NCBI RefSeq assembly: GCF_001644575.1
Contig: NZ_CP015596.1
Coordinates: 4,588,001 to 4,652,000, forward strand
Direction of reading: 5' to 3'
Length of the DNA stretch: 64,000 bases
From: Mycobacterium adipatum
GTDB taxonomy: Bacteria > Actinomycetota > Actinomycetes > Mycobacteriales > Mycobacteriaceae
A program made the translations under genes and the position numbers. Of this stretch, positions 1,313-37,983 are shown in pieces. The first letter of the stretch is position 1; every line of letters starts with the position of its first letter. The notes beneath the pieces were generated by a model that saw only the letters and a list, made by a program, of their open reading frames with translations, made no database searches and was not told the origin of the DNA.

Positions 1313-1313
1313 G

Positions 1314-6146: not shown

Positions 6147-6513
6147 CTGCCTCATAGTGCTGATCGGTCTCGAATCTGTGATGCTCGACCACCACCGGCT
6201 CTCCACAAGGAAAATAGGACTGGATGTAGTCGTCAGAGCCAGCGCGTACGACTATCGCAGTAGGCGCGTCACTCGGGTAGTCGAATATTTCGGCCAGTAG
6301 CCCAGGACTGAGATAAGGCACTTTCGATCCCTCCCCGAGCTCTACCTCCACACTGGCGATACTGCCGCGCGGATCGTAGAGCCGGTCGTATCTGGGATCG
6401 TAGAGCGCAAGTCCGTGGTCGCGCGTCAACTCCAGGAGCGCCGCGAAGTACGCTCTCTCCCGAAGCATGTCCTCGCGGGGCCGATCTTCGATCTCGCTCA
6501 GTGCCACTCTCAT
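6043..6513 (-). CDS. Hypothetical protein overlapping the helicase 3' end (or its frameshifted C-terminus)
   Basis: This 156-aa frame begins with MRVALSEIEDRP behind a strong GAGGAG ribosome site eight bases upstream. It has ordinary codon use and composition throughout, unlike the competing helicase frame, which runs across the same bases to 6269 with an arginine-rich tail. There are two readings. It may be an independent, coupled gene. It may instead be the true C-terminus of the helicase, separated by a one-base frameshift near 6510-6520. The join HREEIVDE to RVALSEIEDR reads as continuous helical sequence, which favours the frameshift, but the ribosome site favours a real start. I recognise no domain. 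Confidence 0.55.
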   Translation of the reverse strand: MRVALSEIEDRPREDMLRERAYFAALLELTRDHGLALYDPRYDRLYDPRGSIASVEVELGEGSKVPYLSPGLLAEIFDYPSDAPTAIVVRAGSDDYIQSYFPCGEPVVVEHHRFETDQHYEAVTPDRQLAQRVLWGWATASTDWESALSWESVELE

Positions 6514-9046
6514 CGACAATCTCCTCGCGGTGAAGAGCGTTGATTCCCTCGCCAGGACTGGTAAATCCACCGCCGCCCGGAAACAGCGAGTAGAACAGCA
6601 TCTGAGCCAACCGCTGTTCAGCCACGGAGCCGCCCGGGCCAGTCCCCGCGAGCATCGCCCGGTAGGCATCGGCGCGGCGGCGGTCATCGACATGAGCGAT
6701 CGCCTTAAGTCGCTTGACCAGTTCAGTTTCCCGCGGGCCGGCGTCGGCTGACAGTTTGCCGGCCGCCCGACACAGCGTCGTCCACGAACGATCCGCACGT
6801 AGGACATCGTCCAAGCCACGCTGGTACTCGTCGAGATAGCCCGCAAGATCTTTGCCCGCATACCCACGGATCTCCGTAATCAGCGCAGCCTTCTTTGGAG
6901 CGACCTGCTGCTTGATGTTCGCGAGCACCAGCTCCTTGGCCACCGTGTCGAGAATGATCTGGCTGCCCGAGGGCAGAAAGGGAAAGCCCTCCTGCACTTG
7001 GCGTTCCAACTGCTTGCGGGTCAGTCCAGTCAGCGCTTGAAAGCGTTGGTCGAAGCGAAACTCGCGGTGCTGGTGACCGACGAAATCAAGGGCGGTCAAG
7101 ACCGACTTGCCAGGAGCGAGCCGAAGCCCACGGCCGAGCTGCTGCAGGAACACCGTGGCGCTCTCGGTGGGCCGCAGGAATAGCACCGTGTCGACCACAG
7201 GAATGTCGAGGCCCTCGTTGAAGAGATCGACGGTGAAGAGCACGTTGATGTCTCGATCACGAAGCGCAGTAAGGGCGCCACGGCGTTCGGTTGTGTCATC
7301 GAGGCCCACGATGGCACGCGCCGGGATACCCGCCTGCATGAACTTCCCGGCCATGTACCGCGCGTGTTCCACGCTGACGCAGAATCCCAGGGCACGCATG
7401 TCACCGACATCGGTGATCTTGTCGCGCAGTTGGTCAAGCACGATGCGGGTACGAGCGTCGTTTCCGGTGTAGAGGCTGTTCAATTGAGCGAGGTCATAGC
7501 CGCCCCGCTTCCATTGCAACGCTTCGAGATCGGTGTTGTCGTGGATACCGAAGTAGTGGAACGGACACAGCAGATTCTGCTCAAGCGCGTCCCACAAGCG
7601 CAGCTCCGCGGCGGTACGCCCACCGAAGAACGCACGCACATCGATGCCGTCGCTACGTTCCGGGGTTGCCGTCAGACCGAGCAGTTCGACCGGCTCGATA
7701 TGGTCCAGCAGCCTCCGGTAGGACGCCGCTTGGGCATGGTGGAACTCGTCGATGACCACCACATCGAAGTGGTCAGGCTTGATGCCGGTGAGGCGGTCAA
7801 CCGAGAGCGATTGGATACTGGCGAACACATGCTGCCACCTCTGCGGCTGCTGACCGTCGACGAGCATCTCGCCGAAGGTCGCGTCGGTGAGGACCTCCCG
7901 GTACATGCGGCGGGCCTGTTCGAGGATCTCCTTGCGGTGCGCGACGAACAGCAGCTTCAGGTTTGAGTTGTGCGCCTCGCGGAGTCGTCGGTAGTCGAGC
8001 GCAGCGATGACGGTCTTACCTGTACCGGTGGCGGCGACGATCAGGTTGCGATGCCGGTCGTGCAGGACGCGCTCGGCATCGAGTTGCTCAAGCAGTTCGG
8101 CCTGATACGGCTTGGCGGTCACCTCCAATCCGGACAGGGTGATGGCGAGCGGATCGCGCTCCCTCTTGCCGGATGCGACTTCCAGGGCCCGCCGAAGCCG
8201 GTCACCGTCTTGCGACGGCGAGTACGGTTCGAATTCGCGGTTCTCCCAGTAGGAGTCGAACGTCGCGCTGAACTTCTCCAGCAGGTGCGGGGTGGCGATT
8301 GCAGACAGCCGCACGTTCCATTCAAGCCCGTCGACCAGCGCACAATGAGACAGATTGGACGAGCCCACGTATGCGGTGTGGAAACCAGTGTTCCGCCGAA
8401 GCAGCCACGCCTTCGCGTGCAGCCTGGTCATGTTGGTGTCGTAGTTGATCCGGACCTCGGCACCGAACTCGTCAACAAGCCGGTCAAGCGCCTTTGCGTC
8501 GGTGGCGCCGATGTAGGTGGTCGTGATGACACGCAATGGGACGCCGCGGTCGCGTAGCTCGGCGAGTTGGCTTTCCAGCAGGCGAAGCCCGTGCCACTTG
8601 ACGAACGCGCACAACAGGTCGACACGGTCAGCGCTGGAGAGTTCTGCCCTTAGCTCGGCGGCCAGCGTTGGTTCGTTGCGTGCGTTTGTCATCAGCGCTG
8701 CGTCCGATAGTGGAGTGGCCGGCCGCGGTGGCCGCTCGGCGCCAAGCACATCGGCAGTGACCGCATCGAGTCGACGAATCTTGCTCGGGTCGTCCTGATA
8801 AATGCCCTCAGTCAGGACGTCCTCTGTCCCCAGAGCGTCGAGGATCTTCGCCGTCAGTTGGGCCCGCTCCTCGGCGCCGCGCGCCGACCGCAGCTGCCGC
8901 TCAATAAGCGGACTGAGGTGTCGCGCGAGAACCAGTGCCTGCTCGGCGTCGTCGACGGTGCTCAAATCGGCGACGAGGCCAGGAGCGTCCTCCAGTTCAG
9001 CCCTGAGTCGCGCAGTCAGAAGCGATTCATACAGTCCGGCGTCCAC
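6269..9046 (-). CDS. PLD-nuclease/DEAD-box helicase fusion (DUF3427 type)
   Basis: This protein of up to 925 aa combines an N-terminal phospholipase-D-type nuclease domain (HAK at 210-212 and GSSN at 228-231, the HxK and GSxN signatures) with a superfamily-2 helicase: Walker A ATGTGKT at 339-345, DEFHH at 433-437, GLTATPER, and motif VI QQLGRGLR. A C-terminal region of the DUF3427 kind follows. Such proteins resemble the nuclease-helicase subunits of restriction-like and defence systems. The GTG start at 9046 is the first in frame. After about residue 843 the frame turns arginine-rich and looks non-coding, while another frame takes over (6043-6513), so the true end is uncertain. It faces away from the DnaQ-DinG-RecQ gene across a 282-bp control region. 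Confidence 0.85.
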   Translation of the reverse strand: MDAGLYESLLTARLRAELEDAPGLVADLSTVDDAEQALVLARHLSPLIERQLRSARGAEERAQLTAKILDALGTEDVLTEGIYQDDPSKIRRLDAVTADVLGAERPPRPATPLSDAALMTNARNEPTLAAELRAELSSADRVDLLCAFVKWHGLRLLESQLAELRDRGVPLRVITTTYIGATDAKALDRLVDEFGAEVRINYDTNMTRLHAKAWLLRRNTGFHTAYVGSSNLSHCALVDGLEWNVRLSAIATPHLLEKFSATFDSYWENREFEPYSPSQDGDRLRRALEVASGKRERDPLAITLSGLEVTAKPYQAELLEQLDAERVLHDRHRNLIVAATGTGKTVIAALDYRRLREAHNSNLKLLFVAHRKEILEQARRMYREVLTDATFGEMLVDGQQPQRWQHVFASIQSLSVDRLTGIKPDHFDVVVIDEFHHAQAASYRRLLDHIEPVELLGLTATPERSDGIDVRAFFGGRTAAELRLWDALEQNLLCPFHYFGIHDNTDLEALQWKRGGYDLAQLNSLYTGNDARTRIVLDQLRDKITDVGDMRALGFCVSVEHARYMAGKFMQAGIPARAIVGLDDTTERRGALTALRDRDINVLFTVDLFNEGLDIPVVDTVLFLRPTESATVFLQQLGRGLRLAPGKSVLTALDFVGHQHREFRFDQRFQALTGLTRKQLERQVQEGFPFLPSGSQIILDTVAKELVLANIKQQVAPKKAALITEIRGYAGKDLAGYLDEYQRGLDDVLRADRSWTTLCRAAGKLSADAGPRETELVKRLKAIAHVDDRRRADAYRAMLAGTGPGGSVAEQRLAQMLFYSLFPGGGGFTSPGEGINALHREEIVDESGTERDRRSAPRGHASGESVLRGAPGVDARPRTCALRSQIRPALRSARQYRQCGGRARGGIESALSQSWATGRNIRLPE

Positions 9047-9234: not shown

Positions 9235-9328
9235 GTGTTTGCCGCTTGGTGGGGGTTTTGAGGGTGCTGGCATTCTGCCGAAAAGTGCGATCTGCGTCGT
9301 TGCTGCACGTCAGTCGGCTGCGCGACCG

Positions 9329-12300
9329 ATGACCACCTCGACTCGACCGATGCCTCCGGCAGCCGAGGCTGCCCATCAGGCGCTTTCTGAGTTCGGGCCA
9401 CTGGCTGCGTCCGAGCTTCGCGAGAAACTTCGGCCGCGCGGCTTTGTCCAGCCGATCGAGCGCCTGCAGCAACTCGCCGACAGGTTTCCTCATCGCTTTC
9501 AAGTGAACCCCGACGGGCTTCTCGCCGTCGCGACCACGTCTGCCACCTCCAGAGACGACGATCCCGACCGTGCCCCAGGAGACGACGTCGACTGGTACCG
9601 CCCGCACCCTGATCGCATCCCGCTCGACCGGGTCGCCGTGCTCGACCTGGAGACCACCGGACTCAACCGAGCCACCGATTTCATCACGGAGATCGCAGTC
9701 GTCCGACTCGACGGCACACCCCTGCTGGACGTAGCAATCGAACTTCCACCGGGAATCGATCGTCCCGCTCCAGCGCGATCAGAACCAGTACCCCTTGGCG
9801 AGGCGCTTCGCCGGTTCGAGACTGACATTGCGGACATCGGCCTCCTCATCGGCCACAACATCGTGAACTTTGATCAGAAGTTCCTCATCGCTGCGGCCAA
9901 CCGCGCAGGCCTGCACCCTCCACGGCTGCCACCGATCATCGACACCCTGCACTTGTCCCTCCTTGTCGACGTCGCCCTGCCTAACCGGGGCCTTGCCGAT
10001 CTGACTCAGATGCTGAATGTCGACCACTCCGCACGCCATCAGGCTCTTTCCGACGCGACTGCGACCGCCGCCGTATCCAGAAAACTGATCGCTTCGGTCG
10101 ACGCGACAGAACCCAGTTGGGCACTCGCCATTGCCGCGCTCGAGACACACTCGCACCCGCTGGCTTTGATCATGCCGCCGCTGAGCTCCGTCCCCGAGCT
10201 CACAACATTGACTCGAGATGCCGACGCGCTGCTGACGCCAACAGGGTCGGCGTCCCCCGATGCGTGGTCCGCCACCCGGAACGCATTTCCCGTACTGCAC
10301 CGGCAGCGGGGCCTTCGATCGCGTCCCGCACAGCAAGAAATGGCACATGCCGTCGCGCAGGTCTTCGACAACGGCGGCCGGGTTGCCGTCGAGGCCCCGA
10401 CCGGAACTGGAAAGTCGCTGGCCTACCTGCTCCCGGCGATCGGTCGCGCGTCGCGCCCCCGACAACCCGTGTTGTTGGCAACCGCCACGAAGGCTCTGCA
10501 AAGCCAGCTACGTGACGAAGCTGCGCGACTGCAACAAGAGAATCTGCTCGCCGCACCGTTCCGCCAGATTCAGGGCGTCGGCAACTACGTCTGCGCGCGC
10601 GAGCTCGAAGATGCCCTGCCAGATGTCGACGCCTCCGGTCTCGCGCTGGCAGTCGCTGTCCGTGCACTCGCCACATCTCCCACCGGCACGTGGGACGACG
10701 TGACCGACGACGTGGTTCGGCGCGCCGACACCCGATACGCACGCACCCGCGCACGTATCAAGACAAGTTCAGGCGGGTGTGATCGCACGTCGTGCAAGTG
10801 GGCCTCGTTGTGCCCTCTGATGCGTCAAATTCAGGGGCTCGATAGCTCCCCCGGCATCGTGTCCGTCAATCACGCGCTTATCGCCAGTTGGATAAAGCTT
10901 GCGCAAAGCGGCATCCCCGCACCCGGAGACGTGCTGGGCGAAGGCCGCGCCGACCTCGTTCTCGACGAAGCCCATGCGCTTGAAGACTCACTTACTGCTG
11001 CATGGACCGAAGGGATCGACGCGCTCGAACTTGAGATCCTCGTCAACAGTCTGTCGCGGCGATCGCGGTTGGTCCGCGAGATTCAAAAGCGCGCACCTGG
11101 GCGCACCGACGTAGTGGACGCCTTGCAAGCAATCGCTGCCACGCTGCCGCAGATTCGCCCAGCCGGCACCGAACTCTCCGAAGCCATCGCGACGTATCTG
11201 CATGAGTATGCCGGCCGGGCGGACGCTGTCGTCCTGCGTTCTGGCGTAGTCGACGGTCGCCCGGAGTTCAGGATCCTCCGCCAAGCGGCCCGCCAAGTCC
11301 GATACCAGCTGATCCAATTGGCGAAAGCCGTTTCGTCGCTGCGCAGCTCACTGAGTGACGTCGCGGGAACTGGATCCGCCCGACAACGTCTCCGCGGGTA
11401 TGCCGAACGTCTCGACAATGCCATCAATCTCCTCGAGACACTCGGACCGCTACCAGACAGCCACCTGTGGGTGTACCGACTGGCCGCCGAGGAGGACGAT
11501 CCCGCCGCGTGGACTTATGAGCGGCTCCCGATCCATATTTTCCCGGAGTTCAAGCAGTGGGTTGTCGATCGAACACATTCGACGGTGCTCTGCTCGGCAA
11601 CGTTGACGGTTGAGCACCGCTTCGACTACACCGCCTCCCGACTTGGCGTCCGTATTGATCCCGAACCAGGCGACGACGATTTCCGAGCCCTTCGCTTGGC
11701 ATCGCCGTTCGATTACCAGAACCAATCGGTGGTAGTGCTCACCAACCACCTTCCGGTGCCGATCCCGGTCAACGAGCGGGAGTTCTGTGAAGAGATGGCG
11801 GCAGACCAGGCCGGATTTCTGTCACTGGCCGGGGGTCGGACGCTCACCCTCTTCGCTGCCCGAAAGCGCATGGATGCAGTGGCAGACGGAGTCCGCACAA
11901 AAACCGCGGAACTTGCGCAGCGCGGCGTTGAGCTGCTCGTCCAAGGCGAGCTCGGCCGATCACAGATCGCACACCGATTTCGGAACGAACAGGGAACCGT
12001 TCTGTACGGACTCAAGTCGTACTGGGAAGGGTTCGACGCACCCGGAGAGACCCTGTCCTACCTATTCATCGAGAAGCCACCCTACCCGCATCCCGACGAT
12101 CCACTCGTGTCCGCACGGCAACGAGCGATCGCTGAACGCGGCGGAGATCCGTTCCTCGACTACGTACTCCCCATGACTGCCATGCAGTTCACCCAGGGCT
12201 TCGGGCGCCTCATTCGGTCCGAGACGGACAAGGGCGCGGCACTGATTTGTGATCGCCGACTGCACGCGCCGACTCAAGCACAACGGGTCATGCTGGGCTC

Positions 12301-14569
12301 GCTTCCGGGGCCAGCGATACACGAATCCCAGGACCGTGACGACGCGTGGACTCGCGCTATCGAATTCGTCACTGGAGAAGCTCCCGATCTGTCGACCGCG
12401 ATCTCATTCGGGCGCGACGACGTCACACAACTGCTCGAGTCGCTTCGCCTCATCGAGGGGGAGGATCCGACCGCCAAACTCATCGAAGCAGCCGAGAAGC
12501 TGTTCGGCATTGCCGAACTGCATCCAAAGCAACTCGAAGTGATGCAAGCGATCATCGACGGCAGAGATGTTGTCGCCATTCTTCCGACAGGATTCGGAAA
12601 GTCGGTGTGCTTCCAGCTGCCGGCGCTCCTCGCGCCTCAGGCCCGCGCGACGGTGGTGGTGTCTCCGCTGGTGGCACTCATCAAAGATCAGGTCAACGAT
12701 CTTCGCGGCCGCCGAGGCATCCGTCCGGTTCAAGGAATCACCGGTACGACCTCTCGGGTTGTGCAAACTGAGATCCTGCGCGACACCGCCAAAGGTGACG
12801 TGCGCTTGCTCTACGTCTCTCCCGAGCGTCTAGCGCGCGACCCAGTGCTACGCGGGGCGCTCGGACGCCAACAGCTGAACCGTGTCATTGTTGATGAAGC
12901 GCACTGCATTTCAGTATGGGGCCACGATTTCCGTCCGGAGTTTCGGCAGGTCCCGGCATCGGTCGCCTCGTTCGACACGCGACCGCCCCGCGCCGGCCTA
13001 ACCGCGACAGCAACACCTGACGTCGAGGTTGATATTACCGGCGCGTTGGACATGGTCGAACCCGTGAGTGTTCGCGAGCCCAGCGACCGCCAGAATCTCA
13101 GATTTCGCGTCGTGCATTGCGCCGATGAACGTGACCGCGCGCGGGAGTTGCTCCGGTTCGTCACGTGGTGCGCCGGCGTTCCCGGCATCGTCTACGTCTC
13201 CAAACGCGCTCTTGCAGAGGAAATTGCGGCGTTGCTCCGACGAGCCGGATACTCCGCCCGGCCGTATCACGCCGGTATGGTGCCCGAACAGCGGGATGCT
13301 GTGCAAGAGGACTTCGATTCCGACACCACGCAAATCATCGTGGCGACTAAGGCTTTCGGCATGGGCATCAACAAGCCGAACATCGGCTGGGTGCTGCATT
13401 ACGACCTCACAGATTCACTGGACGGCTACGCACAGGAAGCCGGCCGCGCAGCACGATCCCGCGACCTCACAGGCAATTGTGTTCTCCTTTACACTAACTC
13501 GGATCTTGCCCGGCGCCGCCGGCTCATCGAAGCGAACAGCACGAAGGCGGATGCAGCGATCACTCAACGGCTGCTGGCTCTTCTGTGGACATGTACCGAG
13601 CGACGCGACAGCCGTGTGTTCGACATCGATGAGGTCGCCGACCAGCTTGGCATCGATGATGACGAAGTCAATGTGCACTTGGCCCAGCTTGAACGTGTCG
13701 GAGCGCTAGAGCAAGAACTGGATTGCTCAGCGCGCGGCACCGTTGATGTCGGTTTTCGCGAACCCGAAGATGAGCGTGAGCGCACGCTGTTCCGAGAGCT
13801 CTTCTACCGGGCCCATCGGGCGCGGCCGAATGTCCGGATTCAGATCGACTTCCAACAGCTAAAGGACGCGCACGGCTACGACCCCGACGACCTTGAACGA
13901 CAACTCATCGATTGGTCCCTCGACCGCTTGGTGACCTTTTCGAGTTCACGCCGACTTCGCCGCGTGCGTCTGCTCAAGCGCGTCGCCCCGGAAGATGTGC
14001 TGGCGCGTGAGTCTGCCCGCTGGAAGTGGTGGCAGAAGCGTCGCCTTCAGGCGATGATCGACTACGCCACAAATGAATCGGACTGCCGTCGGATCATCGT
14101 TGGCCGACACTTCGGTGACGAGATCGCCGACTGTGGAAGCCGCGATATCGTCACATGCGACATCTGCGAAGGCACGCCGGCGCCGTGGGCATCGACTCCA
14201 GATCACCTGGTTCCCGATCCTGAACTCCTCGTCAACGCCGAACTCACTGCCCTACAGGCGATCGCGTGGTCGTCGTCGTACCGCCGCGGCGCCTACGGCG
14301 AGGCCAGTTTGAAAGCGGCCGTGCTGGGCCGAGAATCCCTCGGTGAGGGCCGGCCACTGGGCGCCGGCGTTCTCAGTTGCCCGCAGTTCGGCGCGCTGCG
14401 GCACGTCCGCAATGGCGAACGCCGTTGGGACGAAACCGTGCACAACCTGCTTGACAAGGGCCTGATCGAGCGACGTGCCGTCGAACGAGAAGCGACACGC
14501 ACGGCGTACCAGAGTTTGGCACTCACCGCCCTTGGGGCACAAACACTCGGCGTACCGGGAGCACAATGA
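9329..14569 (+). CDS. DnaQ-like exonuclease / DinG helicase / RecQ helicase triple fusion
   Basis: This 1746-aa protein carries three machines in one chain. Residues about 100-250 form a DEDD 3'-5' exonuclease (LDLETTG, GHNIVNFD, HQALSDA). Residues about 340-970 form a DinG/XPD-type helicase: Walker A APTGTGKS, four iron-sulfur cysteines (YVCAR near 422, then C-x4-C-x5-C in the 480s-490s), DEAH near 545, and QGFGRLIRS. Residues about 1060-1400 form a RecQ helicase: LPTGFGKS, DEAHCISVWGHDFR, TATATPDV, and YAQEAGRAAR. A long C-terminal region follows. I chose the ATG at 9329 (MTTSTRPMPP) over an in-frame TTG at 9239, which adds an unlikely leader. The stop overlaps the next start (ATGA). DnaQ-DinG fusions are known in Gram-positives; adding RecQ is unusual. 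Confidence 0.9.
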   Translation: MTTSTRPMPPAAEAAHQALSEFGPLAASELREKLRPRGFVQPIERLQQLADRFPHRFQVNPDGLLAVATTSATSRDDDPDRAPGDDVDWYRPHPDRIPLDRVAVLDLETTGLNRATDFITEIAVVRLDGTPLLDVAIELPPGIDRPAPARSEPVPLGEALRRFETDIADIGLLIGHNIVNFDQKFLIAAANRAGLHPPRLPPIIDTLHLSLLVDVALPNRGLADLTQMLNVDHSARHQALSDATATAAVSRKLIASVDATEPSWALAIAALETHSHPLALIMPPLSSVPELTTLTRDADALLTPTGSASPDAWSATRNAFPVLHRQRGLRSRPAQQEMAHAVAQVFDNGGRVAVEAPTGTGKSLAYLLPAIGRASRPRQPVLLATATKALQSQLRDEAARLQQENLLAAPFRQIQGVGNYVCARELEDALPDVDASGLALAVAVRALATSPTGTWDDVTDDVVRRADTRYARTRARIKTSSGGCDRTSCKWASLCPLMRQIQGLDSSPGIVSVNHALIASWIKLAQSGIPAPGDVLGEGRADLVLDEAHALEDSLTAAWTEGIDALELEILVNSLSRRSRLVREIQKRAPGRTDVVDALQAIAATLPQIRPAGTELSEAIATYLHEYAGRADAVVLRSGVVDGRPEFRILRQAARQVRYQLIQLAKAVSSLRSSLSDVAGTGSARQRLRGYAERLDNAINLLETLGPLPDSHLWVYRLAAEEDDPAAWTYERLPIHIFPEFKQWVVDRTHSTVLCSATLTVEHRFDYTASRLGVRIDPEPGDDDFRALRLASPFDYQNQSVVVLTNHLPVPIPVNEREFCEEMAADQAGFLSLAGGRTLTLFAARKRMDAVADGVRTKTAELAQRGVELLVQGELGRSQIAHRFRNEQGTVLYGLKSYWEGFDAPGETLSYLFIEKPPYPHPDDPLVSARQRAIAERGGDPFLDYVLPMTAMQFTQGFGRLIRSETDKGAALICDRRLHAPTQAQRVMLGSLPGPAIHESQDRDDAWTRAIEFVTGEAPDLSTAISFGRDDVTQLLESLRLIEGEDPTAKLIEAAEKLFGIAELHPKQLEVMQAIIDGRDVVAILPTGFGKSVCFQLPALLAPQARATVVVSPLVALIKDQVNDLRGRRGIRPVQGITGTTSRVVQTEILRDTAKGDVRLLYVSPERLARDPVLRGALGRQQLNRVIVDEAHCISVWGHDFRPEFRQVPASVASFDTRPPRAGLTATATPDVEVDITGALDMVEPVSVREPSDRQNLRFRVVHCADERDRARELLRFVTWCAGVPGIVYVSKRALAEEIAALLRRAGYSARPYHAGMVPEQRDAVQEDFDSDTTQIIVATKAFGMGINKPNIGWVLHYDLTDSLDGYAQEAGRAARSRDLTGNCVLLYTNSDLARRRRLIEANSTKADAAITQRLLALLWTCTERRDSRVFDIDEVADQLGIDDDEVNVHLAQLERVGALEQELDCSARGTVDVGFREPEDERERTLFRELFYRAHRARPNVRIQIDFQQLKDAHGYDPDDLERQLIDWSLDRLVTFSSSRRLRRVRLLKRVAPEDVLARESARWKWWQKRRLQAMIDYATNESDCRRIIVGRHFGDEIADCGSRDIVTCDICEGTPAPWASTPDHLVPDPELLVNAELTALQAIAWSSSYRRGAYGEASLKAAVLGRESLGEGRPLGAGVLSCPQFGALRHVRNGERRWDETVHNLLDKGLIERRAVEREATRTAYQSLALTALGAQTLGVPGAQ

Positions 14570-17500
14570 TCGAGAAGCGCATCACCCAGCCGCTACTGGA
14601 GTCAGGCCAGCTGACTCTCACCGAACGAGAGTGCAGTGCGCTCACCCTGCCGGAACACAGCAGCAGCATCGATCTCGAACTCGAGGGCGAGCCGTTCCAC
14701 GCCCAGTGGAGTGGCCGCAGCCGTCAACTGACCGGCGACGTCCTCACCGAGCGACTGCAGGACTACGGCCAGGACGGAGGGCTGCTTCGGCTGCGGCTGG
14801 TCGACCAGGTGTACCGACTTCAGTTGCTGCCCCCTGGGACGGCCAGCCAATTGACCGTTGCTCCACCACCCGCGCCGATCACCACCCGCGCGAAAGCAAC
14901 CAAGACCAAGCGTCGCGCAACGGTCGACCGACAGTTTCATGCCGACACCGAGTACGACTGGGGCACCGGCGGTACAAAGACCATCGGGTTCCTTGCGGCA
15001 GCCAAAGAACTTCTAGGCGATCAGCTCAAGGCCGCTGGGTTTGATCCATTGGAACTCGTTGAACTTCGTCTTCAAGGCGAAGAACTAGCGACTTTGGATG
15101 ATTTCGAAGAGCTCCTCGCTGTCGACGTCGCCAACGTGGACCGGATGCCACATCAGGAATCGGTTGCGCGTCATGCGCTATCCCGTCTGCGAGGACGAGC
15201 GGTGCTGGCCGACGAGGTCGGCCTCGGCAAGACCATTGAGGCAGGTCTGGCCGTCAAGGAGCTGGCGTTGCGTGGCCTAGCGAAACGTGTCCTCATTCTG
15301 TGCCCGGCTCCGCTGCGCGAACAGTGGCGTGACGAAATGAACCAGAAGTTCGATCTTGCCTTCGACATCGCTTACCGAGGGCCTGAGATCAAACAACAAG
15401 ACAAACTGATTCTTAGCCTGACCCTCGGTAGATCGAACGCCGACCAACTGACCAAAAAGCCCTGGGATGTCGTGATTATCGACGAGGCTCATCGGGCGGC
15501 CGGTCAAGGTGCCAGAAAAACACGGGACCTCATCACTTCGCTGACCACCGCCTGCCGCTATGCATTCTTTCTTACTGCTACACCAGTGCAGAACGACCTG
15601 CTCGAGCTGTACCGGCTGGTCGAACTTCTGCGCCCGGGAACATTCGAATCGGTCAATGCTTTCAAACGTCAGTTCATGCAGTCATACGATCCACGGACGC
15701 CGAACGACCCTGCCGCTCTACGCAGGCTGATCAGTAGCGTGATGGTTCGAACCACACGGGCCCAGGCTGGTGTCGACCGCGTTACCCGCCGCGCGGTAGA
15801 TGTGCCGGTCGACCTCGGGCCGCGCGAGCGCGAACTGTATGCCCTCAGCACGGACTTGCTTCGAAATGTTATGCGCGACTCCGGGGACACGATGCGCCGC
15901 AGGAGCCTCGCGCTTCGACTGACGGCGAGCCCCTTCTCGATGGGGACCACTGCGCTGCGGATGGCTGATCGACACCCAGACCATCGGGTCCGCGAAGTTC
16001 TTGGTCGCGTCGGCCATTTGGCGATGGACATCCAGGGCTCAGCCCGCGAGAACAAAGCCATCGAGATCACCCGCAAATGGCTTCGCGACCACGGCCGGGT
16101 CCTGATCTTCACCCAACACACGGACACCGTCACCGGACTACTGCGGCGGATGGCAACCGAAGGCATAGTCGCGCGAAGCTTTCACGGCTCAATGTCCGCG
16201 AGCGAACGCGCTGCCACTATTGCAGCATTCAGATCAGGCGACGCGCCCGTGATGATCTCAACCGACGCAGGAGCCGAAGGCCAGAACCTCCAGTTCTGCA
16301 ACTGCGTATTGAACTACGACTTACCGTGGAATCCGATGCGGATCGAGCAACGGATCGGTCGCGTCGATCGATTGACCCAGCCAAAAGACGAAGTTCACAT
16401 CGCAAATCTCTACGCACGCGGCACGATCGACGAAAGCGTCTACAAACTGCTGGCGGAAAAGCTTCGCATGTTCGAGCTGCTCTTTGGCCAGGTGACAACG
16501 ATCCTCGGTGAACTTGACGAAGCTAAGTCCGCGACCTTCGAGACCCGCGTCCTTGAGGCACTTTTCGCAGACAACGACAAGAAGATGGAGGGGCTGCTCG
16601 GCAAGCTTGGCACCGAACTTGTACACGCCCGGGAGAAGGCGTCTGAGCTCATCGCCGCCGACAGCGGCCTCAGTAACTGGATGGCAGAGGCCTTCGAGCA
16701 CCGCAAGGGTCTGACAAAAGCCGGCAGTAATGAACTCGCACCAGAGGCGATCGAGCGCGCCCGGATGCGACAGCGCCGTGTTCAGAGCTGGGTTCGCAGT
16801 GTGCTTAAAGCGCTTGATGTGCAACTGCTTCACGACACAGGCGAGGGCGATGGCGCATTCCTCACAGCGCATTTCGACGAGGAGTTTGACGCAGAGCTTG
16901 GCGGTCGCACGCTGATGCACCTCGCCTTCGACCGACTGGGCTTGGAACACCACCCCGATGCCGAACTATGCGCCGTTGGGTCGCCGGTTTTCGACGAGCT
17001 GCTCGGACTACTTCGGGTGCGCGGAGACATGCACGCTACTGTGCCGATCATCCCCGACGATATTGGCGGTAGCCCACTCAAGCACGCACCCAACGTGACG
17101 CTGACGCGACGTCGCCTGGTCCCGTCTGGCTCATGGAGCGGACAGGCAACATATCGCGCCACGATCGGTGAAGCCGAGACCACGGAGCACCTCATTACCG
17201 CGGACATCAACGGTCACAGCCAACAGCGGCTCGACCGACGTCCGTTGCAGGACGGCGAAACCCTCCCCTCTGCCTTCGACACCCCGTCAAAAGTCATCGC
17301 TGCATTCGAAAAGGCTGCGACGAGTCAACTCGAACGGCTCCGCCGCGACCGGTCGAAGAAGGTTGAGTCGGACCAGGCGATCGAGCTCGATCGCATCACT
17401 AACGGTTACAGGGCTCAAATTGCCGAGGCCACGGGTGAGGACCGAGCGCGTCTCCAGCGCGCCCTGCGGTCCGAGGAACGCCGATTGAACCGTCAACCCG

Positions 17501-20500
17501 ATGTACGTGCTCGCGCCAAGGTACTGGCTTTGACACTCGACGAAGACGATTGGCTTGCCGAAGAAACGTGGGCGGGGCCGAATGGTTCCGAGACCACACT
17601 CACGTATGCCTGGGAGGATCCCGAGCCGCCGCTCGTCGAGAGCGATGCGTCGGGCAACCCGATCGACGTTCTAGCGCTCTGCTCCGACTCCCATACCGTC
17701 GACGAGTCTGAAGCGCTGCATTGTGGTTCGTGTGACCATGTGCGGTGCAAGGCTTGTGGCGTCGATGCTGAGTTCGCCGATTGTCCGTTGTGCGGTACCG
17801 ACTCATGTGGCGTGTGCCGCACGGCCACCGGCGGGCTCTGCCGGCCGTGTGCATCGCCAACCCGCGCCCCAGACCTCGACGAGGAGTTTGCGATCGGCTG
17901 GCGCCTGAACGGCGGCGCCACGCTCCTTGTTGGACCTCGTGTCGCTGAGTTGGTCCGACCAAGCGGTTGGAGTCACGTGCTGGTGCCCGACGGGGATGTT
18001 GAAGACCGCAATCGCCAACGCATGCGGTCCTACGCGAAGCAACACGGCCTACCGCTGGACTCCGGCGTGGCGTTTCGCAATCTGACAGACCGCGCGGACT
18101 CCGACAACGTGAATCGTGTGCGACTCAAGACGTCAAGCGCTGTCGCGGTCGAGCATTCTATCTCTGCCGGGGGCGGCACAGGCATCAACGCCTCCGCGAT
18201 CGATGACATTGCCGACGGACCTGCAGTAGAAGCATTGTCGGAACGCACATTCCACGTTGAGTCGCTCTTGCAGAGTTTGCGCTCTCAGGTGCCGCCTCCG
18301 CTGCCGCCAGCTGTCGTAGTGACTTATCGATCGACGTTTGACGATATGTATCTTGATTCCGATGGCCTAGCCAGAGAACACTCGGTCACCGACGATGACG
18401 GTTCGCTCAAGGTTGTCCAAACTGAGTCAGTACCGTTCTCCTGGTATCAACCGCTGACACATAGCTCCGACCTGGCGGCCGCGGATCTTGGGGGCCTTCG
18501 CGTCTCGCTGCAGCGGCGCAACGAATGCGTCCTCGTCCAGTGCCGAGATGCCATCGATGCATCTGTTCAACAGTGGGCAGCTCTCCCTCACGGGCACAAC
18601 CTGAATGCAGAGCTCGGTTGGTTCCGCTACCTCGAATCACTTGGAATGCCGGGAGGACGGCTGGGGAAGTTTACTGAGGAAGTTCTCACCCTGGTGACAC
18701 CGTTCCCGGTGCCCTCTGAGTGCGAACTCATCGACCGGACAATCAAGCCCGTGACCGTACTTGCGGAATCCGCGCCTGGCGACGAGCTGGTCTCCGCCAA
18801 TGACTCGATGCTGGAGTTGGTAGGCCATACGCCCGACGCTACAGCGGGCCGGAGCATTGCAGCTCTGCCCGCTGCGATGAACCATGATCTGCTACAACGA
18901 GTTGCCCGTTCTTACACCGCTGCACTCCGCAACGGACTCGAAATCACCGAGGTATGGCAAGGCCACGGCCGGGCTACGCACCGGTATTCCGTCTTCAATG
19001 GTCACGCACTAGCGCCGGTTCTTAACGATGGCCAAGACCGCGAGTCAAACTTTGGCGTCTGCCGTGACGGCCACTTCTACGCGGCAGGGACAGCCGCTCT
19101 GTGCGGCTCATGTGACTCCTGGGCCTGCCGGGCGTGCGACGAGATTACAGGGCTGGCGTCATTGACCTGCTCGGGCTGCTCCGTGTCAGTGTGCCAGCGT
19201 TGTGCAGCTACAGAGCACGCAGTCCCGATAGCATCGTGCGTTGTTTGCCGGGATCACGCTTGCTCTGACTGCGGCCGTGATCCGTCCGTCATCGGTTGCG
19301 AGATGTGCGGGCGCGATGTCTGTCGCTCATGTCGGTCCGACAAGACCTGCAAGGCCTGTGCACATCTCGCTCCCGCGGCGGAGGAACAACTTGCTGAACT
19401 TCCTGTTGAGCTCATCGCGGCGGGAGCGACAGTGCTCATAGGCTCAGACCCCGACGCCACCGTCGTGGTGCTCAATCGGGGCGGTGCATACGAGCAGGCG
19501 ATCATCCGGAATGGTTTAGTCACCCGCTGGACCGCTTTCGGCCGATCAACGATCAACCACGAGTACGAATTGCGGTTGGCAGCCAGCCGACAGGCCGGTA
19601 CCCAGGTCGTTCCCGTACGAGCTGCGAAGACCCTTGCTGCGACGCTGTCCGATCCGCACATCGTCGTCGCCGCGGATTCTTCGTACTTTCCTGCATGGTC
19701 AATGCCAGAAAAGGCGCTTCACGGCAGATCGACGACTTCGTTCGGTCGGCCGGAGTCTGACCTGATGCAGTCCGTTGTGAAAGAGTTTCCGACGCCAGCA
19801 GTGCTACCGCATCCAGACTTCACCACGCCGCCCGCAATGAAGTCCGTCTTCAGTGCAATGGATCGACCCTCGCCCATTCACCTCGAAGTGGGTTGGGAGA
19901 GATCTGGTTTCGAGTTTGCAGTAACGTCGAAAGGCATCTTGTGCCGGCACTTTGACGGAACCGAGGAACAGAGCGCATTCACAGCTTGGACCTGGGCAGA
20001 CGCGCCCACGATGCGCTGGGTTTCGGAGGCCTGGGAACCGGCACCCTCCATCCGCGCGCATGCACTGTCATCGGAAGTCGAAGCTGCGCTTGTGAGCATT
20101 GCGTCGCTGTGGGCACTGGGCGTACGCACACCTCAAGGAACACGTTGGTACAGAGTGCGGGCTTCCGATTCTGCCGTGGCCGCAACCGCTCTTTCGCGGT
20201 GGATGGGGCTCGACGACGCAGACGAGGTCGGTGTCTTCACCGATCCGAAGGCCGTCAGACTCTCCCAAGCGAGAAATGCTGCTCGGGTAGACGTTACGAC
20301 CCGTCCGGCAGGATCCCTGAAAGCTGGAGTGAAAACCGCTTCAAGTAATGCGGCGAAGGCGCTGTCCGCGTGGGCGCCGCCGGCGGGAACGAAACAGCCG
20401 GAACTTCAACAATTGCCGCAGCCATTGAAGCTGGGGTTGGAGCAGTTAATCGGCCCTGTCCTCAACTGGATGCAACTCGACGTCGGCGCACACGTTGAGC

Positions 20501-21006
20501 AGTTGACAACAATGCCCAACGGGCATGACTGGTTGTACCAACGCACCCTTCCGGCGGGACAGATTGACGCGCGTCGAACCAACGCAACGTCGGGCCACGT
20601 GCTCGACGAAGGCGTAATCGACCGCGAAGGACATTTCGGCGTCGCGTCGACGCAATGCCAGTACTGCGGCGGAATGACCTGCGCCGTCTGCACGTCCAAA
20701 ACCGTGGCCTGCGACTGCTGCGCAATCGACATCTGCAAGCTTTGCATCAGAGAGCCCCACGACAATCTGTGGCTATGCCCGGCGTGCATTGGGACGCGAC
20801 GGCCCAATCGGAGCGAGGCCAGGGAGCATGGACGATTACTGTCCACACGCCGAATGCTCATCGGTAACGATCCGCGACACGCGGTCGTATTCGAACGTTC
20901 GAAACAACATTGGACACGTCGTGATGCTGCCGGAGGAGCAAAGCAACTGATCGCTAATCCATCAGTCACCGAGTACCTGGACGGACGGTTGGCGCAGGCC
21001 GAGTAG
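14566..21006 (+). CDS. Giant SNF2/RapA-like ATPase with three cysteine-cluster modules
   Basis: This 2146-aa protein starts inside the stop of the DinG-RecQ gene (ATGA), so the two are coupled. The N-terminal third is an SNF2-type DNA translocase: ADEVGLGKT near residue 215, DEAH near 306, LTATPVQN, STDAGAEGQNLQ near 565 and EQRIGRVDR near 593. It then carries three zinc-type cysteine clusters at about 1039-1095, 1499-1600 and 2030-2075, each with repeated CxxC pairs of RING or treble-clef style. Each cluster is followed by a beta-rich stretch with a shared LLVG / VLIG / MLIG pattern, which suggests a triplicated module. I know no family with this C-terminus. It could bind DNA ends, RNA or proteins. 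There is no nuclease motif I can name. Confidence 0.85.
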   Translation: MIEKRITQPLLESGQLTLTERECSALTLPEHSSSIDLELEGEPFHAQWSGRSRQLTGDVLTERLQDYGQDGGLLRLRLVDQVYRLQLLPPGTASQLTVAPPPAPITTRAKATKTKRRATVDRQFHADTEYDWGTGGTKTIGFLAAAKELLGDQLKAAGFDPLELVELRLQGEELATLDDFEELLAVDVANVDRMPHQESVARHALSRLRGRAVLADEVGLGKTIEAGLAVKELALRGLAKRVLILCPAPLREQWRDEMNQKFDLAFDIAYRGPEIKQQDKLILSLTLGRSNADQLTKKPWDVVIIDEAHRAAGQGARKTRDLITSLTTACRYAFFLTATPVQNDLLELYRLVELLRPGTFESVNAFKRQFMQSYDPRTPNDPAALRRLISSVMVRTTRAQAGVDRVTRRAVDVPVDLGPRERELYALSTDLLRNVMRDSGDTMRRRSLALRLTASPFSMGTTALRMADRHPDHRVREVLGRVGHLAMDIQGSARENKAIEITRKWLRDHGRVLIFTQHTDTVTGLLRRMATEGIVARSFHGSMSASERAATIAAFRSGDAPVMISTDAGAEGQNLQFCNCVLNYDLPWNPMRIEQRIGRVDRLTQPKDEVHIANLYARGTIDESVYKLLAEKLRMFELLFGQVTTILGELDEAKSATFETRVLEALFADNDKKMEGLLGKLGTELVHAREKASELIAADSGLSNWMAEAFEHRKGLTKAGSNELAPEAIERARMRQRRVQSWVRSVLKALDVQLLHDTGEGDGAFLTAHFDEEFDAELGGRTLMHLAFDRLGLEHHPDAELCAVGSPVFDELLGLLRVRGDMHATVPIIPDDIGGSPLKHAPNVTLTRRRLVPSGSWSGQATYRATIGEAETTEHLITADINGHSQQRLDRRPLQDGETLPSAFDTPSKVIAAFEKAATSQLERLRRDRSKKVESDQAIELDRITNGYRAQIAEATGEDRARLQRALRSEERRLNRQPDVRARAKVLALTLDEDDWLAEETWAGPNGSETTLTYAWEDPEPPLVESDASGNPIDVLALCSDSHTVDESEALHCGSCDHVRCKACGVDAEFADCPLCGTDSCGVCRTATGGLCRPCASPTRAPDLDEEFAIGWRLNGGATLLVGPRVAELVRPSGWSHVLVPDGDVEDRNRQRMRSYAKQHGLPLDSGVAFRNLTDRADSDNVNRVRLKTSSAVAVEHSISAGGGTGINASAIDDIADGPAVEALSERTFHVESLLQSLRSQVPPPLPPAVVVTYRSTFDDMYLDSDGLAREHSVTDDDGSLKVVQTESVPFSWYQPLTHSSDLAAADLGGLRVSLQRRNECVLVQCRDAIDASVQQWAALPHGHNLNAELGWFRYLESLGMPGGRLGKFTEEVLTLVTPFPVPSECELIDRTIKPVTVLAESAPGDELVSANDSMLELVGHTPDATAGRSIAALPAAMNHDLLQRVARSYTAALRNGLEITEVWQGHGRATHRYSVFNGHALAPVLNDGQDRESNFGVCRDGHFYAAGTAALCGSCDSWACRACDEITGLASLTCSGCSVSVCQRCAATEHAVPIASCVVCRDHACSDCGRDPSVIGCEMCGRDVCRSCRSDKTCKACAHLAPAAEEQLAELPVELIAAGATVLIGSDPDATVVVLNRGGAYEQAIIRNGLVTRWTAFGRSTINHEYELRLAASRQAGTQVVPVRAAKTLAATLSDPHIVVAADSSYFPAWSMPEKALHGRSTTSFGRPESDLMQSVVKEFPTPAVLPHPDFTTPPAMKSVFSAMDRPSPIHLEVGWERSGFEFAVTSKGILCRHFDGTEEQSAFTAWTWADAPTMRWVSEAWEPAPSIRAHALSSEVEAALVSIASLWALGVRTPQGTRWYRVRASDSAVAATALSRWMGLDDADEVGVFTDPKAVRLSQARNAARVDVTTRPAGSLKAGVKTASSNAAKALSAWAPPAGTKQPELQQLPQPLKLGLEQLIGPVLNWMQLDVGAHVEQLTTMPNGHDWLYQRTLPAGQIDARRTNATSGHVLDEGVIDREGHFGVASTQCQYCGGMTCAVCTSKTVACDCCAIDICKLCIREPHDNLWLCPACIGTRRPNRSEAREHGRLLSTRRMLIGNDPRHAVVFERSKQHWTRRDAAGGAKQLIANPSVTEYLDGRLAQAE

Positions 21007-21071
21007 CAATCGTTGGCGGGGCGCACCTTTTCCACGAGGCATCTCGCCGTAAACAAATTTTTCGCAAGGCA

Positions 21072-21884
21072 GTGACCACATCTACCGAACAACAAGATTC
21101 AGGGGCGAATGCAGTGCGATTCCTGACATGGAACATTCAAAGCGGTGGCGGCAACCGCATCGAGATGATCGTCGACGAAATTGCTAAACTTGAGCCAGAC
21201 GTAGTTGGGCTTACCGAAGTGAGGCACGGCAACCTAGGCTCGCTGCGTGGCGCACTACACCAGCGCGGCTACGAGTTCATCGAAACAACGTGCTCCACCG
21301 GCAGCACCAACAGTGTCCTCATCGCGTCAAAGCTTCCCCTCAAGTCTATTGACGAACCAGTCGCCCATGACCCCGAGCGCTGGCTACCTCTGCAAGTCGC
21401 CGAGAGCGATCTTCACATCCTGTGTGTTCACATTCCTGGCGGCACCGACAACAAGTTCGGTGCCGACGGCTTGGGTATGTCGGGAAAGAAGCGGAAAGAA
21501 CTCCTGTGGGACGAGGTCATTGCATATGCTCGACGGCACCGTGATCAGCGCGTCGTCTTGCTAGGCGACTTCAACACCGGTCTGCCGGAAGATGCGCAAG
21601 GAACGCCCTTCGTCCTGTCTGACTACATTCGTGTGTTGCGTCTTGAAAAGTACGTTGACACTTGGCGGAACCGCAATCCGAAAGCGCGCGAATACACGTG
21701 GTACACGAAGCGGAAGAACAAAGAGACACAGACCTCGGACGACTACAACGGTTTCCGGCTCGACTACATCTTCGTTTCACCGACCCTTCGTGACCGAGTT
21801 GTCGACGCCAGACATGTTCACGATGTGCGGATCAACAAGGTATCGGACCACGCGATTGTCCTGGTGACGAGTCCCCGTTACTGA
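21072..21884 (+). CDS. Endonuclease/exonuclease/phosphatase (EEP) family protein
   Basis: This 270-aa protein has the DNase I/ExoIII fold motifs in order: TWNIQSGGG (metal-binding Asn), GLTEVR (metal-binding Glu), a central H/R region, GDFNTG, and a final SDHAI (catalytic Asp-His). It has no signal peptide, so it should act in the cytoplasm on nucleic acid or a phosphoester. The GTG start at 21072 lies 65 bp behind the giant ATPase gene, same strand, so it probably ends that operon. Its TGA stop is formed by the first three bases of the IS3 terminal repeat. The insertion therefore sets its C-terminus, although the catalytic core is complete. Confidence 0.8.
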   Translation: MTTSTEQQDSGANAVRFLTWNIQSGGGNRIEMIVDEIAKLEPDVVGLTEVRHGNLGSLRGALHQRGYEFIETTCSTGSTNSVLIASKLPLKSIDEPVAHDPERWLPLQVAESDLHILCVHIPGGTDNKFGADGLGMSGKKRKELLWDEVIAYARRHRDQRVVLLGDFNTGLPEDAQGTPFVLSDYIRVLRLEKYVDTWRNRNPKAREYTWYTKRKNKETQTSDDYNGFRLDYIFVSPTLRDRVVDARHVHDVRINKVSDHAIVLVTSPRY

Positions 21885-21923: not shown

Positions 21924-22763
21924 TCAGTTGATGCTGCAGGCCACCGGGGTATGGGTGCACCTGCACGCCGCAGCGTACTCGGCCGGTGTGCGGTAGCCCA
22001 GGGCCGAGTGGCGGTGTCGATGGTTGTGTTCGTGCTTGAAGTCGCCGATGACCACGCGGGCCTCGAACAGCGTGTTCCAGTAGTTGCGGTTGAGGCATTC
22101 CTTCCGGAGTCGGTTGTTGAACGATTCGATGTAGCCGTTGTCCCACGGGCAACCCGGCGGGATGTACACCATTCCGGTCTTGTTTTCGCAGAACCGTTGC
22201 AGCGCTTGAGAAACCATCTCCGGTCCATTGTCCATCCGAAGCACCTTCGGTGGGCCGCCACGAGCGGCGAACACCTTCGTGAGTTCCTCGACCAGCCGCT
22301 CGCCAGTGATCGAGCGCTCCACCACATTCAGTAGCGATTCGCGGGTGTGCTCGTCGATCATCGACGCGATCTTGATGGCCTTACCGTCGATGGTGGAGTC
22401 GAACTGGAAGTCGATCGCCCACACCACCTTCGGCGCATCGGCGAGGATCGGCGGCACTGAGGACACCCCGGCCCGCTTGCGGGGCGAGACGACCTTGACC
22501 TGTAGGCCTTCTTCGCGCCAGAGCCGGTGGATCTTCTTCTTATTGACCTCACGGCGCTCGTCGTAGCGCAACGCCGCCCAAGCACGCCGAAACCCGTGGC
22601 ACGGGTGTTTGGTGGCGTAGCCGCGCAGCCAAGCCCTCATGTCGGCATCCGGATCGGTCGGAGTCTGCGCCAACGGCAGGCGACGGTAGGTAGAGCGGGC
22701 CAGCCCAACAGCTTTGCACGCCAACCGTTCCGACATGCCCAAGGTCTCCTTGAGCATGTCCAC
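21924..22763 (-). CDS. IS3 transposase OrfB (DDE integrase domain)
   Basis: This is the catalytic half of the transposase, 279 aa in this frame. It has an HTH_21-type N-terminus and an rve core with the DDE triad: Asp in VVWAIDFQFD, Asp in RMDNGPEM, Glu in GYIESFNN, followed by the LGYRTPAEY end. In vivo it is probably made as an OrfAB fusion by a -1 shift at the GGGAAAA run (22793-22799), where the orfB frame opens into ILSPAAKRRAVDML, rather than from the internal ATG. The frame is intact. Confidence 0.9.
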   Translation of the reverse strand: MDMLKETLGMSERLACKAVGLARSTYRRLPLAQTPTDPDADMRAWLRGYATKHPCHGFRRAWAALRYDERREVNKKKIHRLWREEGLQVKVVSPRKRAGVSSVPPILADAPKVVWAIDFQFDSTIDGKAIKIASMIDEHTRESLLNVVERSITGERLVEELTKVFAARGGPPKVLRMDNGPEMVSQALQRFCENKTGMVYIPPGCPWDNGYIESFNNRLRKECLNRNYWNTLFEARVVIGDFKHEHNHRHRHSALGYRTPAEYAAACRCTHTPVACSIN

Positions 22764-22786
22764 GGCGCGGCGCTTGGCAGCTGGGC

Positions 22787-23068
22787 TCAGAATTTTCCCT
22801 TAGCGACCTCCCGCAGGGCGTCCTTCTCAAGTTCGGCGTCGGCCAGCAGCCGCTTGAGGCGGGCGTTCTGATCGCGCAGCTCCTTGAGTTCCTTGGCGGC
22901 GTCGGTGTCCATGCCGCCGTACGTGCGCCGCCAGTTGTACAGCGTCGCCGGCGAGACCTGCAGCTCGGCGGCGATCTCCTCACCGGTCTTACCTTCGGCA
23001 GCCAACTCATCTGCCCGGCGCAGCTTGCGCACGATGTCCTCCGCGGAATTCCGCTTCCGACCAGCCAT
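22787..23068 (-). CDS. IS3 transposase OrfA (helix-turn-helix)
   Basis: This 93-aa protein begins MAGRKRNSAEDIV and contains the IS3 HTH (EEIAAELQVSPATLYNWRR), which binds the terminal repeats, then a leucine-zipper-like helix (ARLKRLLADAELEKDAL). An earlier in-frame ATG at 23104 would add twelve arginine-rich residues. I prefer 23068, which has AAGGGA upstream. It ends at the shift site that leads into OrfB. Confidence 0.88.
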   Translation of the reverse strand: MAGRKRNSAEDIVRKLRRADELAAEGKTGEEIAAELQVSPATLYNWRRTYGGMDTDAAKELKELRDQNARLKRLLADAELEKDALREVAKGKF

Positions 23069-23106
23069 GTGTTCATCGTCCCTTCTGGCCCGACATCGGG
23101 CCACAG

Positions 23107-23129
23107 GACTCTAAAACTGGTCGGACTCA
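23107..23129 (-). repeat. IS3 terminal inverted repeat (orfA-proximal end)
   Basis: Read on the reverse strand this begins TGAGTCCGACCAG and pairs with the repeat at 21882-21904. Confidence 0.85.
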
Positions 23130-23170
23130 TTCAGCGGGAACACGCCACTTGCAGACGTGGATGTGACGAC

Positions 23171-37973: not shown

Positions 37974-37983
37974 ATCCGTCACC

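Follow-up and report, generated by a model that had tools for sequence, protein, structure and literature searches.

The DnaQ-DinG-RecQ fusion of Thermus was called unique by Omelchenko et al. (2005; PMC1274311), and the part of that paper available to us draws no link to defence. For the two-component Druantia III system (DruH-DruE; PMC13192584, PMC13316683), the accessible sections describe a likely infection sensor together with a helicase effector and a sensitivity to loss of host RecD. In this study, we analysed 64,000 nucleotides of the Mycobacterium adipatum genome (contig NZ_CP015596.1, positions 4,588,001 to 4,652,000; in the following, this whole stretch is the window), in which a gene for an exonuclease-DinG-RecQ fusion (G1) overlaps with a gene for a SNF2/RapA-type ATPase bearing three cysteine clusters (G2). 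The host genome comprises 6.05 Mb in an assembly of two contigs. We propose that G1 and G2 form a translationally coupled two-gene immunity module of actinomycetes; this explanation as a whole, including the mechanism given below, is assigned a probability of about 0.58. Genomes, loci and proteins used for comparison are denoted by three-digit G numbers, L numbers and P numbers, respectively. The pair and its parts are located as follows:

9329..14569 (+): G1, DEDDh exonuclease/DinG/RecQ fusion of 1746 amino acids (aa), based on the open reading frame (ORF) call, Pfam and homologue alignment A1
9641..10057 (+): DEDDh exonuclease domain, about residues 105-243 of G1, with D106, E108, D182, H237 and D242 all present
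10304..12310 (+): DinG-like helicase, about residues 326-994 of G1, with K362, D546, E547 and with C422, C484, C489, C495
12464..14170 (+): RecQ helicase with zinc motif, about residues 1046-1614 of G1, with K1091, D1189, E1190, H1192 and with C1586, C1602, C1610, C1613
14566..21006 (+): G2, SNF2/RapA-type ATPase of 2146 aa with three cysteine clusters, based on the ORF call, Pfam and a structure-sequence match
15127..16545 (+): SNF2 ATPase core, residues 188-660 of G2, with K222, D306, E307, R596 and R599
17680..17850 (+): zinc cluster 1, residues 1039-1095 of G2, with 11 Cys and His1043
17866..19035 (+): exchangeable cassette 1, residues 1101-1490 of G2, defined by block replacement between G027 and G098
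19072..19359 (+): zinc cluster 2, residues 1503-1598 of G2, with His1503 and the cluster Cys
19366..20595 (+): exchangeable cassette 2, residues 1601-2010 of G2, homologous to cassette 1
20632..20787 (+): zinc cluster 3, residues 2023-2074 of G2, with His2023 and ten spaced Cys

The open frame of G1 extends from a TTG at 9239 to 14569, while the ATG at 9329 fits the homologues in alignment A1 and gives the 1746-aa protein. Pfam matches in G1 were RNase_T, ResIII/DEAD, Helicase_C_2, DEAD/Helicase_C and RecQ_Zn_bind, and those in G2 were SNF2-rel_dom and Helicase_C. The initial annotation, which had described one chain with an exonuclease, an iron-sulfur (Fe-S) helicase and a RecQ helicase, an ATGA overlap with the SNF2 ATPase and its three cysteine clusters, and then a same-strand EEP nuclease gene, was borne out. 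G1 carries the three domains in the order that defines a DnaQ-DinG-RecQ fusion, with catalytic, Fe-S and zinc residues in place; C422, C484, C489 and C495 are taken by us to be Fe-S ligands by analogy with DinG. The recQ_fam model TIGR00614 was reached (346.3 bits; cutoff 219.8), while G1 stayed below the RecQ equivalog cutoff (TIGR01389, 365.7 vs 640.2) and the cutoffs of the DinG-type equivalogs PRK08074 (327.3 vs 789), YoaA (332.6 vs 680) and TIGR01407 (257.9 vs 547.7). Both frames are intact, and they are no chance product because many full-length homologues exist: at least 120 for G1 at 47-95% identity, and 99 matches at 29-94% identity for G2. Named close homologues of both belong to Mycobacterium or Mycolicibacterium, and Nocardia nova is among the names of the G2 matches.

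The closest described fusion is encoded by TT_RS10770 of T. thermophilus HB27, which, judged from strain, plasmid and architecture, is probably the protein of Omelchenko et al. At 28% identity, it has the domain order of G1 and retains the DEDDh, Fe-S and zinc residues, and it sits between CRISPR-Cas type I-C and III-B genes. Unlike G1, however, it has no adjoining SNF2-zinc gene; three other genes (279, 180 and 514 aa) follow. T. thermophilus HB27 is a genetic model. Druantia III resembles the G1-G2 pair in having two components but differs in that DruE is a YprA-like helicase with C-terminal PLD domains. DrmD of DISARM, BrxHII of BREX and DpdE of Dpd share the SNF2/RapA-like ATPase core with G2, but G2 failed the cutoffs for DrmD (236.7 vs 950 and 232.2 vs 610) and DpdE (186.4 vs 500). 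Although G2 resembles BrxH models of BREX type 3 (247.5 bits), neither PglZ and BrxC nor the DISARM proteins DrmA and DrmB had a match among the 14 window neighbours scanned, and the locus does not qualify as BREX type 3. Where DISARM or BREX genes stand beside the pair in relatives, they are separate systems and occur at some loci only. The RecQ half of G1 scored 392.9 bits with DpdF and 262.8 bits with PsyrT/RqlH models in PADLOC; the curated DpdF cutoff of 550 was failed (198), and unlike both proteins the RecQ of G1 is fused to an exonuclease and a DinG helicase. A description of the pair was not found in searches of one open-access library, and the accessible portions of PMC12839542, PMC12458937, PMC10853773 and PMC13316683, examined by term search, do not mention such a fusion. 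The pair looks like a so far undescribed helicase-based defence module, with a predicted antiphage function.

Sequence comparison with solved structures places the motor of G2 closest to RapA chains (E 3.6e-49). This similarity could be read as a defence acting on transcription, in which G2 would work RapA-like on RNA polymerase, its cassettes would see phage-modified polymerase or transcription complexes, and G1 would remove R-loops or DNA. The RapA model gave 190.3 bits, but its equivalog cutoff of 576 was failed, the RapA matches stop in the motor region, the DrmD (236.7) and DpdE (186.4) models score higher or alike, and no polymerase-binding part was identified in G2. We consider this explanation improbable.

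G1 and G2 are one two-gene unit. In a search of 148 genomes of the same genus (E<=1e-60), 31 had a G1 match, 16 of them through a stand-alone RecQ only, so that the whole fusion was present in 15 (with a broken copy in G044). The C-terminal half of G2 (E<=1e-20) was found in the identical set of 15 genomes. G1 is immediately followed by G2, or by the first part of it, at each of the 13 loci fetched besides the window; in the fifteenth carrier, G042, the contigs are too short for linkage to show. The same order was seen in G718 and in the Micromonosporaceae G655, G805 and G776, the G655 copy standing at 35-36% identity. Overlaps of 4 or 8 nucleotides join the two genes at 12 of 16 loci, and the remaining four are G098, with inserted DNA, and G016, G655 and G776, where the mechanically called ORF start is uncertain. 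Broken pairs also occur: G2 is split by about 15 kb of other DNA in G086 (L051/L052) and by about 2.4 kb in G098 (L053/L054), and in G044 (L063/L064) several frame breaks affect both genes. Across 13 genomes, G1 and G2 distances correlate beyond rpoB (partial r 0.67). Wider sampling gave G1 in 4 of 249 genomes of the order, 2 of 396 of the phylum and, with P0197 as query, 3 of 150 of the G655 family, and G2 in 1 of the 396 of the phylum. The pair extends over mycobacteria and Micromonosporaceae; it is patchy but travels together, in contrast to the scattered independent occurrence that would have spoken against a joint system.

Residue conservation was counted in 118 G1 homologues (86 at >=54% and 32 at 47-54% identity) and 85 G2 homologues, leaving out G1 homologues below 1500 aa (P0186, P0187) and G2 homologues of at most 1900 aa (13 of P0001-P0098). 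The motor residues of DinG and RecQ, the four Cys at the Fe-S place and the four zinc Cys of G1 occur in every one of the 118 homologues. A complete set of the five exonuclease residues is seen in 77 of these, namely 67 of 86 at >=54% and 10 of 32 at 47-54% identity, and the domain is degenerate in three Micromonosporaceae rows of alignment A1. In G2, the five ATPase residues checked are present in all 85 homologues, as are the 11 Cys and His1043 of zinc cluster 1; His1503 of cluster 2 is kept in 85 and its Cys in 84 or 85, while cluster 3 has His2023 in 85 and its ten spaced Cys in 84, with one gap. Mean identities to 12 relatives were 85.5% for the ATPase core of G2 (about 86% for ATPase and RecQ cores), 85% for the C-terminal half and 72% for the N-terminal part of DinG, 56% for the exonuclease, and 43% and 40% for cassettes 1 and 2, which lie between the zinc clusters. 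Since the motor, Fe-S and zinc residues are invariant but no more than 77 of 118 homologues retain a complete exonuclease site, a model of pure DNA degradation is doubtful, and the nucleolytic step assumed in the initial annotation is weakened by the 41 homologues that lost an intact site with all checked motor residues kept. ATP-driven DNA handling looks to be the constant of the pair and exonuclease action an option.

What appears to be new here is that the two stretches of about 400 aa between the zinc clusters of G2 are replaced as blocks between near-identical motors. The clearest case is the pair G027 and G098, whose rpoB genes are 99.7% identical. Their G2 proteins share 98-99% in the ATPase and post-ATPase regions, 93-94% in zinc clusters 1 and 2, 91% in cassette 2 and 87% in the rest, but only 55% in cassette 1, where synonymous divergence (dS) is saturated at 2.26 and the ratio of nonsynonymous to synonymous divergence (dN/dS) is 0.18. 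Outside cassette 1, dS amounts to 0.10-0.24 in G2 and 0.14-0.20 in G1. Along the gene, DNA identity drops around codon 1100 from 0.93 to about 0.5-0.67 and is back at 0.97 around codon 1500; the difference in cassette 1 is a block replacement and not the result of point selection. This is the one pair with evidence at the DNA level, the following ones being compared as proteins. P0005 shares 99% of the motor with G027 but 55% and 51% of the cassettes, and with P0009, a G098-type protein, 99% of the motor, 89% of cassette 1 and 51% of cassette 2. Between P0092 and G016 the motor is 99-100% and everything downstream of it 53-62% identical, and between P0024 and P0032 the post-ATPase region has 96% and the cassettes 59% and 52%. 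The converse was seen for P0061 and P0062, with 80-83% in the cassettes and 72% in the post-ATPase regions. In 9 of 18 non-redundant pairs with a post-ATPase identity >=0.94, which share members and are therefore not independent, a cassette falls below 0.65. G1 drops less in comparably close pairs: among 16 with both motor regions >=0.94, the lowest exonuclease value was 0.66, the next 0.73, and the lowest N-terminal value 0.65.

The two cassettes belong to related units: hhalign aligned unit 1, made up of a zinc cluster and cassette 1, with unit 2 over 403 columns at a probability of 98.5 (E 4e-15). The 3219-aa homologue P0099 contains 13 paired CxxC motifs compared with 8 in G2. Cassette 1 was modelled by AlphaFold2 with a predicted local distance difference test score of 91.2. 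Fold searches with the C-terminal half of G2 and with cassette 1 returned nothing above noise, which is no proof of a new fold; a domain-length relation of cassette 1 to a known fold, PUR repeats for example, is uncertain. When only zinc cluster 1 and cassette 1 served as the query, one protein of 318 aa was obtained among candidates of 0.55-1.75 times the query length. The C-terminal zinc array was not covered by the matches shown from PADLOC 2.0.0 (best 25 of 49), NCBIfam and Pfam.

For the immunity module we propose the following mechanism. G2 would be the specificity subunit, with its SNF2/RapA-like motor tracking along duplex DNA and its zinc-anchored tandem cassettes recognising a feature of the invader, such as a phage protein, a DNA-protein complex or a DNA structure. 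Recognition would lead to loading of G1. Helicases of the DinG family run 5'-3' and those of the RecQ family 3'-5', and because both motors are joined in one chain, G1 may be a bipolar, RecBCD/AdnAB-like unwinder dismantling replication intermediates of the invader. Homologues with an active DEDDh domain would use it to trim 3' ends, and in the others host nucleases would probably complete the task. More tentatively, and at somewhat less than even odds, G2 could be an innate immune receptor, combining a conserved SNF2 translocase with tandem zinc-bracketed recognition modules that are swapped and multiplied by recombination and serve for sensing something other than a short DNA site; strains would therefore reprogram what the bipolar helicase G1 attacks. 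The HsdS target domains reprogram type I restriction in a like manner. The sensing role that had been suggested for the ATPase gains support from the exchangeable cassettes but stays a proposal. If true, the pair would stand for a motor-led style of defence, with three invariant ATP motors and an optional nuclease, and for a receptor that changes its specificity modules through recombination, and it would open to experiment the question of what is recognised by defence systems of the helicase type. Strains that differ in their cassettes but hardly in their motors offer a ready-made comparison, because a difference in phage range between them would be traceable to one block of about 400 aa.

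The surroundings of the pair are rich in defence genes. The initial annotation had named Wadjet, SIR2 and NERD neighbours, and all three are real; they are listed here together with a fourth gene:

28306-34862 (-): JetABCD, full Wadjet, by profile match
23814-25466 (-): NERD-helicase, by profile match
25504-27078 (+): SIR2-like gene, by profile match
6269-9046 (-): PLD-helicase type IV restriction gene (family F5), upstream of the pair

An SbcD/SbcC-like pair and a Fic gene also belong to the defence context of the window. In the islands of relatives, different defence systems stand beside the pair. Typing with PADLOC was done for 27 chosen flank proteins. The flank of G135 has BREX-like PglX-BrxC-PglZ-BrxD-BrxH, five of these gene families being also present in G092; DISARM DrmA/DrmB stand beside the pair in G020, with the same families in G086, G066, G016 and G655; further flanks carry Hma (G027), a DruE-like protein plus type IIG restriction (G718), PsyrT (G006) and type IV restriction (G136). 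Within 10 kb of the pair in 10 islands, 93 ORFs matched 103 PADLOC models (E<=1e-30); 25 of these models are itemised, and the distinct matching ORFs are thus not exactly countable. In a random-locus control at the same threshold, 116 ORFs from 9 loci matched 17 models with three names (PD-T4-6 kinase models, mad6 and C3a189), one ORF each; these were 116 of 131 ORFs, locus L283 (14 ORFs) and one ORF of L282 being left out. One of the ten random draws hit the island of G006 and was moved by 3 Mb. The kinase name PD-T4-6 occurs in flanks (2 ORFs for one model) and control alike.

Across ten islands of 75-104 kb, G1 and G2 alone are common to all, the next gene family being present in five, and over about 35 kb on each side nothing besides the pair is shared. 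A conserved chromosomal site was rejected on these grounds. Eleven same-genus assemblies, however, have the pair and rpoB on a single contig, and in 8 of them the pair keeps one orientation, on the strand opposite to rpoB and about 100-225 kb upstream of it (G097, G016, G135, G136, G086, G718, G098 and G020; different in G000, G006 and G044). A preferred variable zone is therefore possible, while one core position in all mycobacteria is contradicted by the presence in 15 of 148 genomes.

A further explanation holds that the pair serves the mobile islands that carry it, in their transfer, their maintenance or the exclusion of rivals, in place of antiphage defence. It would agree with the variable islands around the pair, with the inserted DNA that splits G2 in G086 and G098, and with DinG-RecQ fusions on plasmids of Thermus, Meiothermus and Deinococcus, which are distant (28-29% identity). 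But besides G1 and G2 no gene family is common to all ten islands, transfer and replication genes not having been searched as such, and no plasmid record has a place covering 80% of either protein. We regard this explanation as very improbable.

A three-gene system with the EEP nuclease as a working part, as initially suggested, had the following gene as its third member:

21072-21884, same strand as G2: G3, ExoIII/EEP-like nuclease of 270 aa, Pfam Exo_endo_phos

In its favour are the common strand and the 65 bp from the G2 stop to the EEP start in the window. No EEP match was found in 13 related loci of 31-36 kb, however. Among the 148 genomes eight had a match, and the three closest others (69, 54 and 48% identity) are in G124, G132 and G046, all without the pair; G020 is the one other genome with both, its match (34%) lying about 58 kb from the pair. 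On this distribution the EEP gene was rejected as a third member, and the three-gene system is largely refuted and scarcely credible; of that claim, the co-occurrence of G1 and G2 and their recurrence near defence genes stand, while the EEP part is not supported.

Several points weigh against the immunity module or parts of it. Members of the DinG, RecQ and SNF2 families also function in repair, replication and transcription, the defence activity is only predicted, and the polarity of the two G1 motors is taken from general knowledge of their families. Distances of G1 and G2 track rpoB (r 0.66 and 0.74), and because of this and of the eight loci in the zone upstream of rpoB, the pair may have been passed on mainly by descent, with losses. 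No plasmid record spans 80% of G1 or G2, no phage record spans 80% of G1, and the C-terminal half of G2 had no phage match; in a viral scan of 50 loci, G1 matches covered at most about 700 of 1746 residues and none had the fusion. For G420, a genome of the phylum sample that is 66% complete and has a distant relative of G1 (36% identity), no G2 match was obtained. The cassettes match no solved fold well enough to hint at a ligand, their exchange would also fit escape from a phage inhibitor, and G098, one partner in the best example of cassette replacement, carries a G2 gene that is disrupted close to its start. Finally, a scan of named genomes listed 80 loci with mostly ordinary RecQ, of which at least three span DinG plus RecQ (L066-L068, 30-32% identity), and these have a UvrD-type helicase after the fusion in place of G2. 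The record titles name Acidimicrobiia or Acidimicrobiales for two of them and only 'bacterium' for the third. The genes following the distant fusions are:

L066 15023-16801: UvrD-type helicase with C3a187 similarity, directly after the G1 relative
L067 14692-16716: UvrD-type helicase with C3a187 similarity, directly after the G1 relative
L068 15061-16911: UvrD-type helicase with C3a187 similarity, directly after the G1 relative
L036 21805-24703 (Thermus): trio of about 260-280, 180 and 510 aa
L037 19502-22333 (Meiothermus): trio of the same sizes

The Thermus trio had no Pfam match above cutoff. Because distant G1 relatives have such other neighbours, the fusion may be a common effector directed by different partners.

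Some of these points would suit an accessory module of DNA repair or replication restart, with G1 acting on stalled forks or crosslinks, G2 clearing proteins, and the island position reflecting dispensability. Each helicase half of G1 resembles a repair helicase family (TIGR00614 reached, YoaA and DinG models below cutoff), divergence partly follows rpoB, and the accessible part of Omelchenko et al. (2005; PMC1274311) cites the Thermus fusion in a genome comparison on heat and radiation. But the whole fusion is present in just 15 of 148 genomes of the genus, its neighbours are repeatedly defence systems, and the replacement of blocks of about 400 aa would be unexpected for a housekeeping repair protein. 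A repair role is therefore unlikely, though it deserves consideration, and the immunity module is preferred.

Two neighbours were rejected as parts of the module. For the NERD-helicase (family F14), proximity to the pair was limited to the window, G006 and G044. A recurrent neighbour is the PLD-helicase type IV restriction gene, with a member of family F5 located upstream in the window, G027, G098 and G805 (Micromonosporaceae), a 37% match in G136 and a copy about 32 kb upstream in G718; but G020, G066 and G086 have only helicase matches of 26-30%, and six others have none. Family K2 (477-568 aa) lies downstream of the pair in five of the ten islands (G006, G086, G098, G136 and G718). In the PADLOC analysis of the flanks, cytosine-methylase models (DruM, MTase_II) match three ORFs.

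Upstream in the window, one further row of genes was found:

143-5701 (+): SbcD-like phosphoesterase, SbcC-like ATPase (1201 aa) and a 326-aa gene without Pfam match

This row has weak similarity to LmuB and mad3. Between the EEP gene and the NERD-helicase, two overlapping frames at 21924-23130 (-) together resemble an IS3-type transposase by eye. A Fic gene is also present in the window, and two related genes of family F41 at 27083-28336 (-) and 36345-37982 (-), the second with DUF6398, bracket the Wadjet operon and the Fic gene.

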